Below, one piece after another: positions 40,898-53,016 of a DNA stretch of 64,000 nucleotides; within the stretch, counting starts at the first letter, position 1; every line of letters starts with the position of its first letter. The position numbers and the translations under genes are program-made. Source of the stretch: Cardiobacteriaceae bacterium TAE3-ERU3 (GTDB taxonomy: Bacteria > Pseudomonadota > Gammaproteobacteria > Cardiobacteriales > Cardiobacteriaceae); the NCBI GenBank assembly GCA_019218315.1, contig JAHUUI010000001.1, positions 169,722 to 233,721 on the forward strand, in the 5' to 3' direction. The notes below the pieces were generated by a model that was not told where the DNA came from, made no database searches, and saw only the letters and a program-made list of their open reading frames with translations.

Positions 40898-40926
40898 ATT
40901 CTAGCGAGCTAAGCGCAAAAAGTCAA
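40898..40926 (-). promoter_or_regulatory. Alpha operon promoter
   Basis: Minus-strand TTGACT (40921-40926), 17-bp spacer, TAGAAT (40898-40903). Transcription would start near 40891, only about 23 nt before the rpsM ATG. It lies between rpmJ and rpsM, where the E. coli alpha promoter also is. Confidence 0.7.
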
Positions 40927-41101: not shown

Positions 41102-42427
41102 TTAGCGGCGGTATTGCCCGCCACCGAAGCCTGATAAATTGGCTTTCTTCATCAGTGATTCGTACTGTTTGGACATCACGTGTGACTGAACTTGAGACAT
41201 AAAATCCATAGCAACCACAACTGCGATCAACAATGACGTACCGCCGAACAAGAACAATATTTGCCCTTGAGCCGAACCGAGGTTCATAATCGACGGAATA
41301 ATACAGACAAATGCTACATAGAACGCACCGACCAAGGTCAAGCGCTCTTGCACCATATCCAAATAGTCTGCTGTCTGACGCCCAGGTCGGAAGCCTTGAA
41401 TAAACGCATTGGATTTTTTCAGATTGTCAGCCAATTCACGATTTTCAAACATCATTGCAGTATAGAAAAACGAGAACAAAACGATCAACAAACTGAATGT
41501 TGCGATATACAACCAGTTACCGGGCTGGAAAGCGCCAGTTACGTCTGCGATATAGCGACCAACAGTTCCTTCGAAGCCTGACAGCAACGAGAATGCAGAA
41601 ACCAATAGCGTAATAATTGCCGATGCAAAAATAGCCGGAATAACGCCCGCCATATTGATCTTGAGTGGCAGATGTGACCGCTGCCCCATGGCTTGCTGAT
41701 TCATGCCCTGGCGTTTTGCATAATGAATTGCAATACGACGCTGAGCACGCTCAACAACCACAATCAGAGCAAAGAGGGCTACAATCACACCGATGATCAA
41801 GAAAAACTGACCATACTGATCATTTTCCTTGGTCTGAGCGATCAAACCACCTATGCCAGCAGGCATATTTACTGCGATACCAGCAAAAATCAGCATTGAA
41901 ATGCCGTTGCCAATACCGCGCTCAGTTATCTGCTCACCCAGCCACATCAAAAAGAGTGCCCCTGCAGCCAAAGCAATCGTACCCGTAAGTAGAAAGCCTG
42001 GACCTGTTGTCAGCGACATCCCTTGAGCCATGACGGTTTTTGATATCGCGAAGCCTTGTATTAGCGCCAAAGCCAGAGTCAGATAGCGGGTATAGAAGGT
42101 GATCTTCTTCTGCCCACTACTACCCTGTTGGCGCAGTTCTTTCAGCGGCCCATACATATGGGACAACAACTGCATCACAATCGAGGCTGAAATATAAGGT
42201 GCGACACCAAGTGCCAGTAGGGAAGCATTACTTAAAGCACCACCAGAGAACATATTGAACAACTGAAAGATTGAACCCTCGCCTTGCTCAAACATTCTTC
42301 TAACTTCCGCTAGGTCAACACCCGGCACTGGAATATGTGCACCCACACGGTAAATGACCAATGCGAGAACCAAATACCACAGGCGAGATGTCAGTTCCTT
42401 ATACGGATTTGCCGTTGGCTTTGCCAT
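41102..42427 (-). CDS. secY: Preprotein translocase subunit SecY
   Basis: Channel subunit of the Sec translocon in the inner membrane, 441 aa (E. coli 443), with ten membrane helices. The plug and first helices are in [30 protein letters not shown]; the cytosolic loop with the conserved Arg of the C5 region is near [16 protein letters not shown] 42427 is preferred to the adjacent ATG 42430 because the GGGGAG site would be only one base from the latter. It follows rplO in the spc operon. Confidence 0.97.
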
Positions 42428-42466
42428 CATGCTCCCCTTATTACTGTTACGCTATTTACTATCAGC

Positions 42467-42904
42467 TTACGCTTCGATTGAGCCACCTGCGGCCTCAATT
42501 GCTTCGCGTGCACCTTTAGAAACGCTGATACCTTGAAGTTTTACAGCAGCAGTGACGTCACCGCTAAGGAAAACTTTCGCACTCAATGCTGAGACAGGTA
42601 CGATGCCAAGCTGCTTGAGCAGAGCCAAATCAACCACCTGCGCATCAGCGAGCTTATTCAACTGAGCTGTGCGGATTTGAGCAGTATCACCTTTGGTGCG
42701 GCTACGGAAGCCACGCTTAGGCAAACGACGCTGCAAAGGCATCTGACCGCCTTCGAAACCAACCTTGTGATAGCCGCCTGAACGTGCTTTTTGGCCTTTG
42801 TGACCTTTACCACTGGTTTTACCCAAGCCTGAGCCAATACCACGACCCAAACGCTTAGGCGCAGAGCGCGAACCAGCTGCAGGTTTTAAATTATTTAAAC
42901 GCAT
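42467..42904 (-). CDS. rplO: 50S ribosomal protein L15
   Basis: Late-assembly large-subunit protein, 145 aa (E. coli 144). The Gly/Lys-rich N-terminus ([20 protein letters not shown]) and [18 protein letters not shown] are family signatures. It lies between rpmD and secY; the start is 2 bp after the rpmD stop. Confidence 0.98.
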
Positions 42905-42906
42905 TA

Positions 42907-43092
42907 TTACACCTCTTCAACTTTGAGGAGATAGGACACTTTATTAATCATGCCGCGATTCTCCGGTGTATCTTTGACAACACGCGACTGGTGCATACGG
43001 CGCAAGCCCAAACCATTCACACATTGCTTGTGGCTTTCGAGACGACCATGCTTGCTCTTAACCAAAGTAACTTTTAATTCTTTAGTGGACAT
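42907..43092 (-). CDS. rpmD: 50S ribosomal protein L30
   Basis: Small large-subunit protein, 61 aa (E. coli 59): [20 protein letters not shown] then [20 protein letters not shown] 43092 is chosen over the reading from 43098 because GAGGT lies eight bases before it. It overlaps the end of rpsE by 11 bp, which suggests coupled translation. Confidence 0.96.
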
Positions 43093-43597
43093 TAGCAACT
43101 ACCTCTTCGACCGATTTACCGCGCTTGGCAGCAACATATTGCGGGCTGTTCATCGCTTTCAGACCATTGATGGTTGCGCGAATGACGTTACCGGCGTTAC
43201 GTGTACCCATACACTTGGCCAATACATCCTTGACGCCCAGCACTTCAAATACTGCACGCATCGCACCGCCGGCAATAATACCGGTACCTTCAGATGCAGG
43301 CTGCATGTAAACTTTAGCTGCGCCGTGCTTACCAATGATTGGGTGCTGCAAGGTATCCTGGTTCAGATCAATACGAACCAGAGTCTTCTTAGCTTGATCC
43401 ATCGCTTTTTGGATTGCTACAGGGACTTCTTTAGCCTTACCATAGCCATAACCAACGCGGCCTTTGCCATCGCCAACCACTACCAATGCAGTGAATGCAA
43501 ACTGGCGACCACCTTTAACAACTTTGGTTACGCGATTAACCGCAACCAGCTTTTCTAAAAATTCGTTGTCTTGCTGACGTTCTCTTTGCTGTGCCAT
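43082..43597 (-). CDS. rpsE: 30S ribosomal protein S5
   Basis: Small-subunit protein important for decoding accuracy and mRNA helicase activity, 171 aa (E. coli 167). [40 protein letters not shown] and [18 protein letters not shown] are signatures. It sits between rplR and rpmD. Confidence 0.98.
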
Positions 43598-43606
43598 AAC
43601 TACCTC

Positions 43607-43963
43607 TTAAAACTTCAAACCAGCTTCGCGCGCAGCATCAGCAAGCGCTTTGACTCGACCGTGGTAGCGGAAGCCACTGCGGTCAAATGCGATATCTTCA
43701 AGCCCAAGCTCTTTTGCTTTTTCAGCGATGGCTGTACCAACTTTAGCTGCAGCTTCGATGTTACCGGTAAATGAGAGACCATCACGGACACTTGCCTGTA
43801 CAGTAGAGGCTGTTGCCAAAACCTGATCACCAGTACCACTGATGATTTGGGCATACATGTGACGAGGTGTCTTGTTGACGACCAGACTTGCTTTGCCTTT
43901 GCCGCGGATATTAGCACGGGTCTTCTTGCCACGGCGGATACGATTAATTTTCTTTTGATTCAT
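43607..43963 (-). CDS. rplR: 50S ribosomal protein L18
   Basis: 5S rRNA-binding protein of the central protuberance, 118 aa (E. coli 117). [14 protein letters not shown] and the C-terminal [26 protein letters not shown] are typical. It lies between rplF and rpsE in the spc order, 9 bp after rplF. Confidence 0.98.
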
Positions 43964-43972
43964 GATCTCACC

Positions 43973-44506
43973 TTACTTCTTCTTGGCTTCTTTCATGACC
44001 ACGCGCTCATCAGCGTAGCGTACACCTTTACCTTTGTAAGGCTCTGGCGGACGATATGCACGGATTTTGGCAGCCACTTCACCGACCAACTGCTTGTCAC
44101 TGCCTTTAATGTGCAGTTCAGTTTGGCTCGGTGCTTCAATTGTGATCCCTTGAGGAATCGCGAACTCGACCGGGTGTGAGAAACCAAGTGATAAGTTAAG
44201 CTTCTGACCTTGCACCTGCGCGCGATAACCGACGCCTACCAGTTGCAATTTTTTGACAAAACCTTCGCTGACGCCAATAACCATATTATTGACCAGTGAA
44301 CGCATAGTGCCACACATAGCCCAGTGATCACCGCTTTCCTTGACCGGCTTAACGCGAATTTCACCGTCAGCTTCTTCAACTGTGGTATATGGATGCAAAT
44401 CCATAGTCAATTCGCCTTTGCTACCCTTAACGTTGATGTTTCCACCATTAATAGAAACGTTAACGCCAGAAGGGATGGTGACAGGTTGTTTACCAATTCG
44501 TGACAT
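43973..44506 (-). CDS. rplF: 50S ribosomal protein L6
   Basis: Large-subunit protein near the sarcin-ricin loop, 177 aa as in E. coli. [21 protein letters not shown]-like [11 protein letters not shown] and the C-terminal [16 protein letters not shown] are signatures. It lies 9 bp after rpsH, preceded by a strong AAGGGGGGAATAT site. Confidence 0.98.
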
Positions 44507-44515
44507 ATTCCCCCC

Positions 44516-44905
44516 TTATGCGACTACGCAAAGAACTTCGCCGCCAACACCAAGCTCGCGTGCTTTGTGATCACTCATCACGCCACGGGAAGTTGAGATA
44601 ACAGCAATACCCAAGCCGCCTTGGACTCGTGGTAATTCGTTTTTGCCTTTAAAGATACGCAGGCCTGGACGGCTCACACGCTTGATCATCTCAATAACAG
44701 GACGACCCTGATAATATTTGAGATGGATAGTCAGTTCAGGCTTAACATCACCTTGAACTTCATAAGACTGGATATACCCTTCTTCTTTAAGCACTTTAGC
44801 AATTGCTTCTTTGTGCTTAGAGGCAGGCATAGTCACCAGCGAACGACCGATACGCTGCGCATTACGCACGCGAGTCAGCATATCTGCAACTGGATCAGAT
44901 AACAT
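44516..44905 (-). CDS. rpsH: 30S ribosomal protein S8
   Basis: Primary 16S rRNA-binding protein and, in E. coli, the translational repressor of the spc operon, 129 aa (E. coli 130). [17 protein letters not shown] and the C-terminal [23 protein letters not shown] are signatures. Here it is separated from rpsN by nearly 300 bp holding a terminator, a promoter and a structured leader, so it begins a transcription unit of its own. That placement is unlike E. coli, where it directly follows rpsN. Confidence 0.97.
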
Positions 44906-44931
44906 AGTTTTACCTCGATAGTCAGTATCAG

Positions 44932-44991
44932 ACCAAAATGGTCCTGGAACTTAAAAACCTGAAAACCATTGGTGGCAATAAAGCCAAATGG
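44932..44991 (-). promoter_or_regulatory. Structured leader of the rpsH transcription unit
   Basis: On the minus strand two hairpins lie in the leader. One, 44966-44991, pairs CCATT with AATGG and TGGC with GCCA, with two unpaired C and a UUUAUU loop. The other, 44932-44944, pairs GACCA with TGGTC around TTT. A bulged stem before the S8 gene could be an S8 autoregulatory target; this is inference and no match to the known S8 site was established. Confidence 0.35.
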
Positions 44992-45069
44992 GTGATTTTT
45001 CAACCAAATTCAGGGAATAAAAATGATGCAAAGCAGCCAAATTCAGCCAACCTCGCAGCAGGGCGAAGT

Positions 45070-45097
45070 ATTCTACCGAAATTTTAGGCAAAGTCAA
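45070..45097 (-). promoter_or_regulatory. Promoter inside the spc cluster, upstream of rpsH
   Basis: Minus-strand TTGACT (45092-45097), 16-bp spacer, TAGAAT (45070-45075). It is nearly the same as the alpha operon promoter (TTGACT, TAGAAT). The transcript would start near 45062, leaving a leader of about 155 nt before rpsH. Confidence 0.68.
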
Positions 45098-45105
45098 TGC
45101 AATTT

Positions 45106-45144
45106 AGCTGCTTAGCTTATGATCAAGTCACAAGCTAAGCAGCT
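45106..45144. repeat. Perfect 13-bp inverted repeat between rpsN and rpsH
   Basis: AGCTGCTTAGCTT (45106-45118) and AAGCTAAGCAGCT (45132-45144) with a 13-nt loop. It lies between the rpsN terminator and the rpsH promoter. No strong U-tract follows on the minus strand (AAATTG), so it may back up termination or bind a regulator. Confidence 0.7.
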
Positions 45145-45161
45145 TTGGTTTGGTAATACAA

Positions 45162-45188
45162 AAATCGAGCCGTACTGACGTACGGCTC
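45162..45188 (-). terminator. Intrinsic terminator after rpsN
   Basis: On the minus strand GAGCCGTAC-GTCA-GTACGGCTC is followed by GATTTTTGTATT, 15 bp beyond the rpsN stop. The 9-bp GC-rich stem and T-run should stop or attenuate transcription in the middle of the usual spc operon. Confidence 0.8.
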
Positions 45189-45202
45189 CACTTAAGCAAA
45201 TA

Positions 45203-45511
45203 TTACCAACTTGCTTTTTTAATACCTGGCACTTCACCACGCATTGCCAGCTCACGCAATTTGATACGTGACAGACCGAACTTGCGGTAAACCGCATGTG
45301 GACGACCTGTGATACGGCAACGACGTTGTACGCGTGCAGGTGAAGCGTTACGCGGAAGTTTTTGCAGTTTTTCCTGCGCTTCCAAACGTTCTTCTTCTGA
45401 ATACTGATCAACCTTACGGATGATCTCTTTCAATTCATGTCGCTTAGCGGCGTATTTTTGAACAGTCTTGATACGCTTCGCTTCGCGATTGATCATGCTT
45501 TTTTTAGCCAT
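45203..45511 (-). CDS. rpsN: 30S ribosomal protein S14 (long, zinc-free form)
   Basis: Small-subunit head protein, 102 aa (E. coli 101). It is the long C-minus type: [18 protein letters not shown] then [31 protein letters not shown], with only one Cys, so no zinc ribbon. It lies 2 bp after rplE. A terminator follows directly, which splits the spc gene order at this point. Confidence 0.97.
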
Positions 45512-51381: not shown

Positions 51382-51403
51382 AAGCTTTCCTCAATAGAAA
51401 AAA

Positions 51404-51431
51404 GACGAGAGGAGGGCGGGTGACCCTCGTC
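51404..51431 (-). terminator. Intrinsic terminator/attenuator just before rplC
   Basis: On the minus strand GACGAGGG pairs with CTCTCGTC (one bulge) around a C-rich loop and is followed at once by six T, then the rplC ribosome site. This is a textbook terminator shape placed inside an essential operon, so it is probably conditional. Confidence 0.75.
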
Positions 51432-51450
51432 GCCTCGATAAAGACAGCAA

Positions 51451-51499: not shown

Positions 51500-51814
51500 T
51501 TACTGCAATTCGATCTTGACGTCAACACCTGCGGCAAGATCCAGCTTCATCAGTGCATCAACGGTCTTGTCAGTAGGATCGACAATATCCATGATGCGCT
51601 TATGAGTTCGCATTTCATATTGGTCTCGCGCGTCTTTGTTAACGTGTGGAGAAATCAATATGGTGTAGCGCTCTTTTTTGACTGGCAAAGGAACCGGGCC
51701 CTTAACTTGGGCGCCGGCACGCTTTGCGGTTTCTACGATCTGCTTGGCTGACGCATCAATCAAGCGGTGATCGTAGGACTTCAAACGTATACGAATTTTT
51801 TGTGTACTAGCCAT
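51500..51814 (-). CDS. rpsJ: 30S ribosomal protein S10
   Basis: Head protein and, as NusE, partner of NusB in transcription antitermination, 104 aa (E. coli 103). [28 protein letters not shown]-like start (here [20 protein letters not shown]) and [10 protein letters not shown] are signatures. It lies 11 bp after tuf, joined to the str genes rather than to rplC. Confidence 0.97.
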
Positions 51815-51825
51815 AATAAAACCCG

Positions 51826-53016
51826 TTACTCAATGATGCTGGCAACAACGCCGGCACCAACTGTACGGCCACCTTCACGGATCGCGAAACGCAGACCTTC
51901 GTCCATCGCGATTGGGTGAATCAGCTCAACAACTAACTTGACGTTGTCGCCAGGCATAACCATTTCAACACCTTCTGGAAGGATACATTCGCCAGTTACG
52001 TCCGTAGTACGGAAGTAGAACTGTGGACGGTAGCCTTTGAAGAATGGAGTGTGACGACCGCCTTCATCTTTAGACAGTACGTATACTTCTGCTTCAAACT
52101 TGGTGTGTGGTGTGATTGAACCAGGCTTGGCCAATACTTGACCACGCTCTACGTCTTCACGCTTGGTACCACGCAGCAATACACCGACGTTGTCACCAGC
52201 TTGACCTTGGTCGAGCAGCTTGCGGAACATTTCAACACCAGTACAGGTAGTCTTGGTGGTTGGACGGATACCGACGATTTCGATTTCTTCACCAACTTTA
52301 ACAACACCACGCTCAATACGACCAGTTACTACAGTACCACGGCCAGAGATTGAAAATACGTCTTCGATTGGCATCAGGAATGGGCGGTCAATGTCACGCT
52401 CAGGCTCTGGAATGTAAGAATCCAGTGCTTCTACGAGCTTGATGATTGATGGTACGCCGATGTCTGATTCGTCGCCTTCAAGTGCTTTCAGTGCAGAACC
52501 AGTGATGATTGGTGTGTCGTCACCTGGGAAGTCATATTCTGACAGCAGGTCACGTACTTCCATTTCTACCAGCTCGAGCAGTTCTTCGTCGTCAACCATG
52601 TCTGCTTTGTTCAGGTATACAACGATGTTAGGTACACCAACCTGACGAGACAGAAGGATGTGCTCACGAGTCTGTGGCATTGGGCCATCAGCTGCTGAAC
52701 ATACGAGGATCGCGCCGTCCATCTGTGCAGCACCGGTGATCATGTTCTTAACATAGTCAGCGTGTCCCGGGCAGTCTACGTGTGCGTAGTGACGGTTTTC
52801 TGATTCGTATTCTACGTGGGCAGTTGAGATGGTGATACCACGTGCACGCTCTTCTGGTGCGCCGTCAATCTGATCATACGCTGAGAACGAACCACCAAAA
52901 CGATCTGCGCCAACCTTAGTCAGGGCCGCAGTCAGTGTAGTTTTACCATGGTCAACGTGACCAATTGTGCCCACGTTTACGTGTGGCTTGTTACGGGTAA
53001 ATTTTTCCTTAGACAT
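51826..53016 (-). CDS. tuf: Elongation factor Tu
   Basis: GTPase that brings aminoacyl-tRNA to the ribosome, 396 aa (E. coli 394). G1 [11 protein letters not shown]3 [13 protein letters not shown]4 NKADMV (usually NKCD) and the switch [12 protein letters not shown] are visible, followed by domains II and III ([23 protein letters not shown]). It lies between fusA and rpsJ. A second copy, common in gammaproteobacteria, is not in this window. Confidence 0.98.

Follow-up and report, generated by a model that had tools for sequence, protein, structure and literature searches.

A probable S8-binding hairpin before rpsH in Cardiobacteriaceae and a predicted split of the spc operon at this site in one genus

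The window, i.e. the whole stretch of 64,000 nucleotides of Cardiobacteriaceae bacterium TAE3-ERU3 that was analysed, carries ribosomal protein genes in which the gene order around the split described below is that of the usual spc operon. Between rpsN and rpsH lies a gap of 297 bp in which no gene was seen. The sequence-only reading had described a terminator, a dyad, a promoter and a leader in this gap, and inspection of the sequence together with our scans confirmed a terminator-like hairpin, the dyad, a promoter-like site and a leader (Table 1). The S14 protein encoded by rpsN was 79-90% identical to the S14 proteins of the family loci compared.

Table 1. Genes and sequence features on both sides of and within the rpsN-rpsH gap (window positions).
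Feature	Position	Strand	Remarks
rpsN (S14), last gene of upstream unit	45203..45511	-	stop codon 45203-45205
Intrinsic terminator-like hairpin and T-run	45160..45188	-	GAGCCGTAC-GTCA-GTACGGCTC then GATTTTT, 14 nt past the rpsN stop
Perfect 13-bp inverted repeat, 13-nt spacer	45106..45144	.	directly upstream of the -35 hexamer
Sigma-70-type promoter-like site TTGACT-16-TAGAAT	45070..45097	-	followed by a GC-rich stretch
Leader of the predicted rpsH unit	44906..45062	-	about 157 nt; start near 45062 predicted from the -10 hexamer
Helix-21-like bulged hairpin UUAAGUUCCAGGACCAUUUUGGUCUGAUACUGA, proposed S8 binding site	44922..44954	-	family comparison and rRNA match
Shine-Dalgarno sequence GAGG of rpsH	44913..44916	-	5 nt downstream of the hairpin
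rpsH (S8, 129 aa), proposed autorepressor	44516..44905	-	ORF translation
rplF, rplR, rpsE, rpmD, rplO, secY, remainder of proposed downstream unit	41102..44506	-	names read from translations, without a family search

The stem of the terminator-like hairpin (45188-45167) has 9 bp, six of them G-C, and a loop of 4 nt. It is followed by GATTTTTG, and the T-run reaches 45160, which gives 45188-45160 the G+C-rich stem and T-run of a predicted intrinsic terminator. The promoter-like site shares 10 of 12 letters with the sigma-70 consensus at a spacing of 16 nt (16-18 nt allowed), matches of this quality being at chance level in the region. In 15.5 kb around the gap 12 promoter-like sites were found versus 17.2 expected from shuffles, and terminator-like sites were in slight excess (21 versus 16.5, sd 3.8). 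Because these regional counts are near chance, the weight of both elements rests on the relatives considered below. The dyad exceeded chance, as 500 dinucleotide shuffles of the gap gave no inverted repeat longer than 10 bp. It is present as a single copy in its own genome, and the idea of a repeated genomic element was rejected on this ground. The second genome of the genus, G001, had no inverted repeat of at least 9 bp in the 377 bases before rpsH. The dyad is a candidate for an operator or a scar. Rfam yielded no match at gathering score within the window nor at the E. coli spc operon; when the Rfam search was relaxed for the gap, three matches appeared, all far under their cut-offs and none of them plausible.

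The gap of the window was the longest among the 247 resolved rpsN-rpsH gaps of 249 loci examined (L080 and L298 were not resolved). Median and maximum were 25 and 184 bp in the class sample (140 of 141 loci resolved), 13.5 and 204 bp for the other loci of the order (18 of 18, including L112, a second S8 locus of genome G004) and 17 and 194 bp for loci from further genome contigs (78 of 79). The sample excluded G124, whose S8 match was partial, and those 15 of the 158 class genomes in which S8 had no match. Within the family, the window included, all 11 gaps measured 60-297 bp; in the twelfth genome, G001, the two genes are about 518 kb apart. Conservation of the gap in relatives had been named as a check of the sequence-only reading. 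The long gap did not pass it, since rpsN and rpsH are 60-93 bp apart in the ten unsplit family genomes, while the hairpin before rpsH did, being present in 12 of 12.

These 12 Cardiobacteriaceae genomes are that of the window, G001 from the same genus and ten more (locus L005 duplicates G006 and was not counted); the closest named relative by S8 is Dichelobacter nodosus with 81% identity. Each of them has a bulged hairpin of the form UUAAGUUCCARG-nnn-loop-nnn-CUGAUACUGA before rpsH, the copy of L094 being slightly diverged with a 5' arm one base shorter. In genus g4 (two genomes) the stem is closed by C(UUCG)G. The 3' end of the hairpin is 1-7 nt from the Shine-Dalgarno sequence and 10-20 nt from the ATG in all 12 genomes, i.e. 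the hairpin adjoins the ribosome binding site of rpsH throughout. Because the ten unsplit genomes have the hairpin too, it did not arrive with the split.

The structure of the hairpin was assessed with 11 of the 12 sequences, nine of them distinct; L094 was excluded because the aligner misplaced it. All 99 pair cells were paired (0 of 500 shuffles as good), and sliding of the partner strand as a control lowered pairing to 15-41%. Changes on both sides affected three pairs and 10 cells, a cell count unmatched by 500 shuffles, and the covariation score was 0.303 compared with 0.110 in shuffles (reached by 0 of 500). As many pairs changed on both sides (three) and as many further pair types (six) occurred in 107 and 182 of 500 shuffles, respectively, and these two measures therefore add nothing. 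Helices lie on both sides of an internal loop, the upper one with compensatory changes. The lower U-A and U-G pairs next to the core were invariant, and because they never vary covariation is silent on the pairing of the core. Single hairpins exceeded shuffles in stability to a moderate degree only (z -0.3 to -2.5; 10 of 12 folded), and minimum-energy folds of longer stretches favoured other pairings. Judged by eye, the conserved UUCC does not seem to pair generally with the Shine-Dalgarno sequence. A covariance model built from the 11 leaders (R1) found the omitted L094 site in 588 kb with 21.5 bits and an E-value of 0.12. Over 91 loci R1 returned the window, D. nodosus (L005) and L094, plus a weak match in L079 (E 0.99) that was discounted because it lies on the wrong strand.

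According to PMC4176348, S8 binds a core of helix 21 of 16S rRNA that includes A595-(A596-U644), G597-C643, U641 and A642. The hairpin of the window is identical to UUAAGU (593-598) and CUGAUACUG (637-645) of E. coli rrs at 15 of 15 positions, with the strands in the order of the 16S rRNA; E. coli rrs served as the reference. Identity was 15/15 in 11 of the 12 family copies and 14/15 in L094, and AAGU plus AUACU, which contain the letters of the A-A-U and G-C-U triples and of A642 in the S8 core (PMC4176348), are present in 12 of 12. In a stretch of 1001 nt of rrs the 15-letter pattern occurred once, at helix 21, and in none of 2000 rrs shuffles. The shorter 9-letter core alone recurred in 179 of 2000, and for this reason the weight lies in the full 15-letter match. 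A covariance comparison of the leader with helix 21, another check named by the sequence-only reading, was run with R1 and agreed with it: the best match in rrs was nt 590-646, which is helix 21 (8.7 bits, E 0.26, roughly calibrated), covering A595, A596, G597, U598, A640, A642, C643 and U644. The sole other match in rrs had 2.3 bits and an E-value of 9.9. The low score at helix 21 is explained by an extra UC after U598 in the leader and by the longer loop of the rRNA.

On the side of the protein, the S8 of the family keeps the STS motif, which meets A642. At residue 85 (E. coli numbering) all 12 Cardiobacteriaceae have Phe, and all 11 other S8 proteins compared have Tyr; according to PMC4176348 the hydroxyl group of Tyr85 touches G597 in some complexes.

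The specificity of the site was examined in other genera. R1 gave strong matches in three of 274 class genomes, all three Cardiobacteriaceae. Four weak class matches (E 0.5-1) had no S8 gene within loci of about 3 kb. A first relaxed scan of the gaps for helix 21 flagged L035, L095, L204 and L228 outside the family, of which only L204 was convincing by eye. In a second relaxed scan 6 of the 11 family gaps were flagged (shuffles 0.2), as were 5 of 140 class gaps (2.5 expected) and 1 of 78 gaps from further genome contigs (1.2 in shuffles); among the 18 other loci of the order there was no hit (0.1 in shuffles). Judged by these flagged and shuffled counts, the relaxed scan misses true sites and is near chance outside the family.

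The genus g90 (L300-L302, L204) has a helix-21-like site that straddles the stop codon of rpsN in 3 of 3 genomes. It reads UUAAGUC[CU]AGC, a short loop, GGUUGG or GCUGG, then AUACUGA, and its 5' arm is formed by the last codons of rpsN (AAG TCY AGC TGG stop). By eye the three copies differ one-sidedly (U-G/C-G and G-U/G-C) with the pairs kept. R1 ranked the three g90 sites at the top among six loci (E 0.035-0.06), and a site of this type was absent from the one genome of the sister genus. By its sequence the g90 site is a probable third S8 switch. Possible divergent S8-like hairpins, with AAGU and then ACUGA, were also seen before rpsH in L245 (genome G099; R1 12.4 bits, E 0.59) and L095 (G013; 8.8 bits, E 4.4). 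They were not counted despite their fitting position because the letter at 640 does not pair with U598. L095 has a gap of 204 bp with a promoter-like TTGCAT-17-TATTAT, noted by eye.

Many ribosomal protein leaders contain hairpins, and the hairpin before rpsH could be a conserved element of translation control or RNA stability without a role for S8, its likeness to helix 21 being coincidental. Two extra bases adjoin the core, and binding of S8 is a prediction, both of which would suit such a reading. Against it, 15 of 15 positions of the S8 site are matched within the leader of the S8 gene itself, which no rrs shuffle reproduced, the fixed letters are those of the S8 core whereas the rest of the stem varies with compensation, and the core recurs at the corresponding place in the unrelated genus g90. 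Thus we consider coincidence very unlikely and favor the view that the hairpin is an S8 site.

The bulged hairpin had been proposed to be an S8 target moved to this leader from rplE. In the spc mRNA of E. coli the site bound by S8 contains A+80-(A+81-U+11), as stated in PMC4176348. Of 141 loci given, 140 were examined for a site of reversed strand order at the start of rplE. It was found in E. coli and in the enterobacterial symbiont Regiella; a match in a Rugosibacter contig (L023) was judged spurious by eye. None of the 12 rplE starts of the family has such a site, and the circularly permuted strand order of the E. coli type is not that of the family, where the AAGU arm is 5'. A separate origin of the family site is therefore likely. 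An S8 target before rpsH is, on computational grounds, very likely; its having moved does not agree with the reversed order and the rplE starts, and "moved" should rather read "arose separately before rpsH".

The predicted promoter and terminator were compared within the family. The promoter-like site is present in 2 of 2 genomes of the genus and was lacking in all ten other family genomes when the 160 nt upstream of the hairpin were scanned. A looser terminator rule, applied over the same range, flagged 1 of the 10 unsplit genomes (L086); this range stopped short of the terminator-like hairpin of the window. In G001 the operon is physically split: rplX to rpsN lie at 1.11 Mb on the minus strand, and rpsH and the genes following it at 1.627 Mb on the plus strand. 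Past rpsN G001 has GCAGCC-TTTG-GGCTGC-TTTTTT, which differs in sequence from the terminator-like hairpin of the window. The scan listed this stem only on the opposite strand, probably because the T-run can pair with the preceding A-run. Before rpsH of G001 is a promoter-like TTGACA-16-TATAAT with 12 of 12 consensus letters (0.5 promoter-like sites expected there), and the distance from the end of the -10 hexamer to the hairpin is 113 nt in G001 and 115 nt in the window. Because the halves lie on opposite strands an inversion is suggested; a simple inversion as the cause was not retained. An HlyIII-like gene (by reading) that is now beside rpsN of G001 lies at 672 kb in the genome of the window, but a VOC-like gene (by reading) near rpsH of G001 had no match in that genome, so that a reciprocal junction was not demonstrable.

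The S8 site may be real with the terminator and promoter unused, so that the operon in this species is still read through and controlled as a single unit. Promoter-like sites no commoner than chance in the region and the usual gene order retained in the window are in line with this. It is unlikely, however, in view of the physical break in G001, where a promoter-like site of full consensus stands almost equally far from the S8 hairpin, of a hairpin with a T-run after rpsN in both members of the genus, the one in the window with the 9-bp stem described above, and of ten unsplit genomes in which the promoter-like site is lacking. The claim of the sequence-only reading that rpsH opens its own unit thus gained support from the relatives and is very likely for this genus, as far as computation goes. 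A parsimonious order of events, inferred from two species, would be the hairpin in the family, then terminator and promoter in the genus and finally the physical break in G001. The gene group appears to be split at its control point, probably into two separately expressed units in the genus.

Taken together, we favor the reading, with a probability of about 0.85, that S8 represses rpsH by means of a leader hairpin mimicking helix 21 and that the operon is cut at this point in the genus. S8 in excess of free 16S rRNA would bind the leader hairpin and, with the hairpin 5 nt before the Shine-Dalgarno sequence, would block access of the ribosome to rpsH; rplF to secY would follow rpsH via translational coupling. 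In E. coli the cistrons after rplE are coupled and the regulation of secY is unclear, as the review PMC10931766 describes it. In the genus the terminator after rpsN would end the front unit of S10 and spc genes, and the new promoter would start the rpsH unit with the S8 site inside its leader. The genes rplN, rplX, rplE and rpsN, S8-controlled in E. coli, would fall under the upstream unit. Binding of S8, repression, coupling and the use of terminator and promoter are what we infer from sequence.

Alternatively S8 might act mainly via decay or processing of the mRNA at the hairpin and not by a block of ribosome entry. PMC10931766 states that the E. coli genes ahead of the S8 site are controlled by destabilization of the mRNA, and in ten family genomes rpsN is still just upstream of the site. 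The hairpin abuts the Shine-Dalgarno sequence in 12 of 12 genomes (see above), which fits direct occlusion, and if terminator and promoter work the unit of this genus has no upstream gene left to retro-regulate. We regard a main role of decay as quite unlikely and retain occlusion of the ribosome binding site as the proposed mode of action.

Further observations concern other parts of the window. Between rpmJ and rpsM is a promoter-like TTGACT-17-TAGAAT (40898-40926, minus strand), the hexamers of which are identical to those before rpsH. A terminator-like hairpin GGCGAAGAGGG-uyacccg-CCCUCCUCUCGCC-UUUUU at 51395-51437 (minus strand) lies between rpsJ and rplC and is present in 12 of 12 family genomes (comparison loci L303-L313). 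In the family the rpsJ-rplC gap has 81-125 bp, compared with 32 bp for E. coli. This hairpin shows compensation at two outer pairs, and 95.6% of the cells are paired in an alignment that misplaces one row (11 of 500 shuffles as good). A covariance model of it (R2) found nothing in the S10 region of E. coli; over 248 class genomes it matched 55, with E-values of 7.7e-15 in the window's own genome, 2.8e-10 in G001 and 1.3e-4 to 0.1 in the other 53. The gene for EF-Tu is only 11 bp from rpsJ (51814-51826), which is too little space for an S10 leader immediately upstream of rpsJ. The hairpin may be an attenuator of the S10 operon, perhaps under control by L4, placed after rather than before rpsJ.

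S8 feedback is known in detail from E. coli. According to the 2024 review PMC10931766, phylogenetic studies of how spc is autoregulated "have not been advanced", and nothing is known of its regulation in B. subtilis or other species. The compensated hairpin of 12 genomes is a candidate for a second, differently built S8 switch, and the genus offers a comparison of two species for the breaking of a ribosomal protein operon at a regulatory site. An S8 leader before rpsH was not found in the open-access literature searched; an earlier report may exist elsewhere. We give about even odds to a wider reading, taken as a whole, in which S8 control of the operon arose more than once through copies of helix 21 that differ in place and strand order: at the start of rplE in enterobacteria with the order reversed, wholly before rpsH in Cardiobacteriaceae with the order of rRNA, and across the stop of rpsN in the genus g90. 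Because the site sits before rpsH, the rpsN/rpsH boundary would be regulatory and hence a permitted breakpoint. The genus would have gained terminator and promoter first, and one species would then have broken physically. As a part of this reading the family-specific Y85F exchange in S8 and the insertion of two bases in its site may have evolved together.

Other ribosomal protein leaders mimic rRNA for autogenous control, and the leader of rpsH is presumed to act likewise, by autogenous control through a structured leader. In the survey PMC8046335 whole operons separate, generally after insertion of genes; the break described here is inside an operon, and no gene was seen in the gap of the window's species. 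Compared with helix 21 of E. coli 16S rRNA, the leader has the same 15 of 15 letters and the same strand order, yet adds UC after U598, a bulged purine in the 5' arm and a short apical loop. The E. coli spc site shares the mimicry of the helix 21 core (AAGU / ANACU) and the location inside the operon that encodes S8. It covers the start of rplE, and its AAGU arm follows the ACU arm at about 70 nt, whereas the Cardiobacteriaceae site lies before rpsH with the AAGU arm first and wholly outside of coding sequence. S8 is the repressor at the E. coli site, and the same role is presumed for S8 in the Cardiobacteriaceae.
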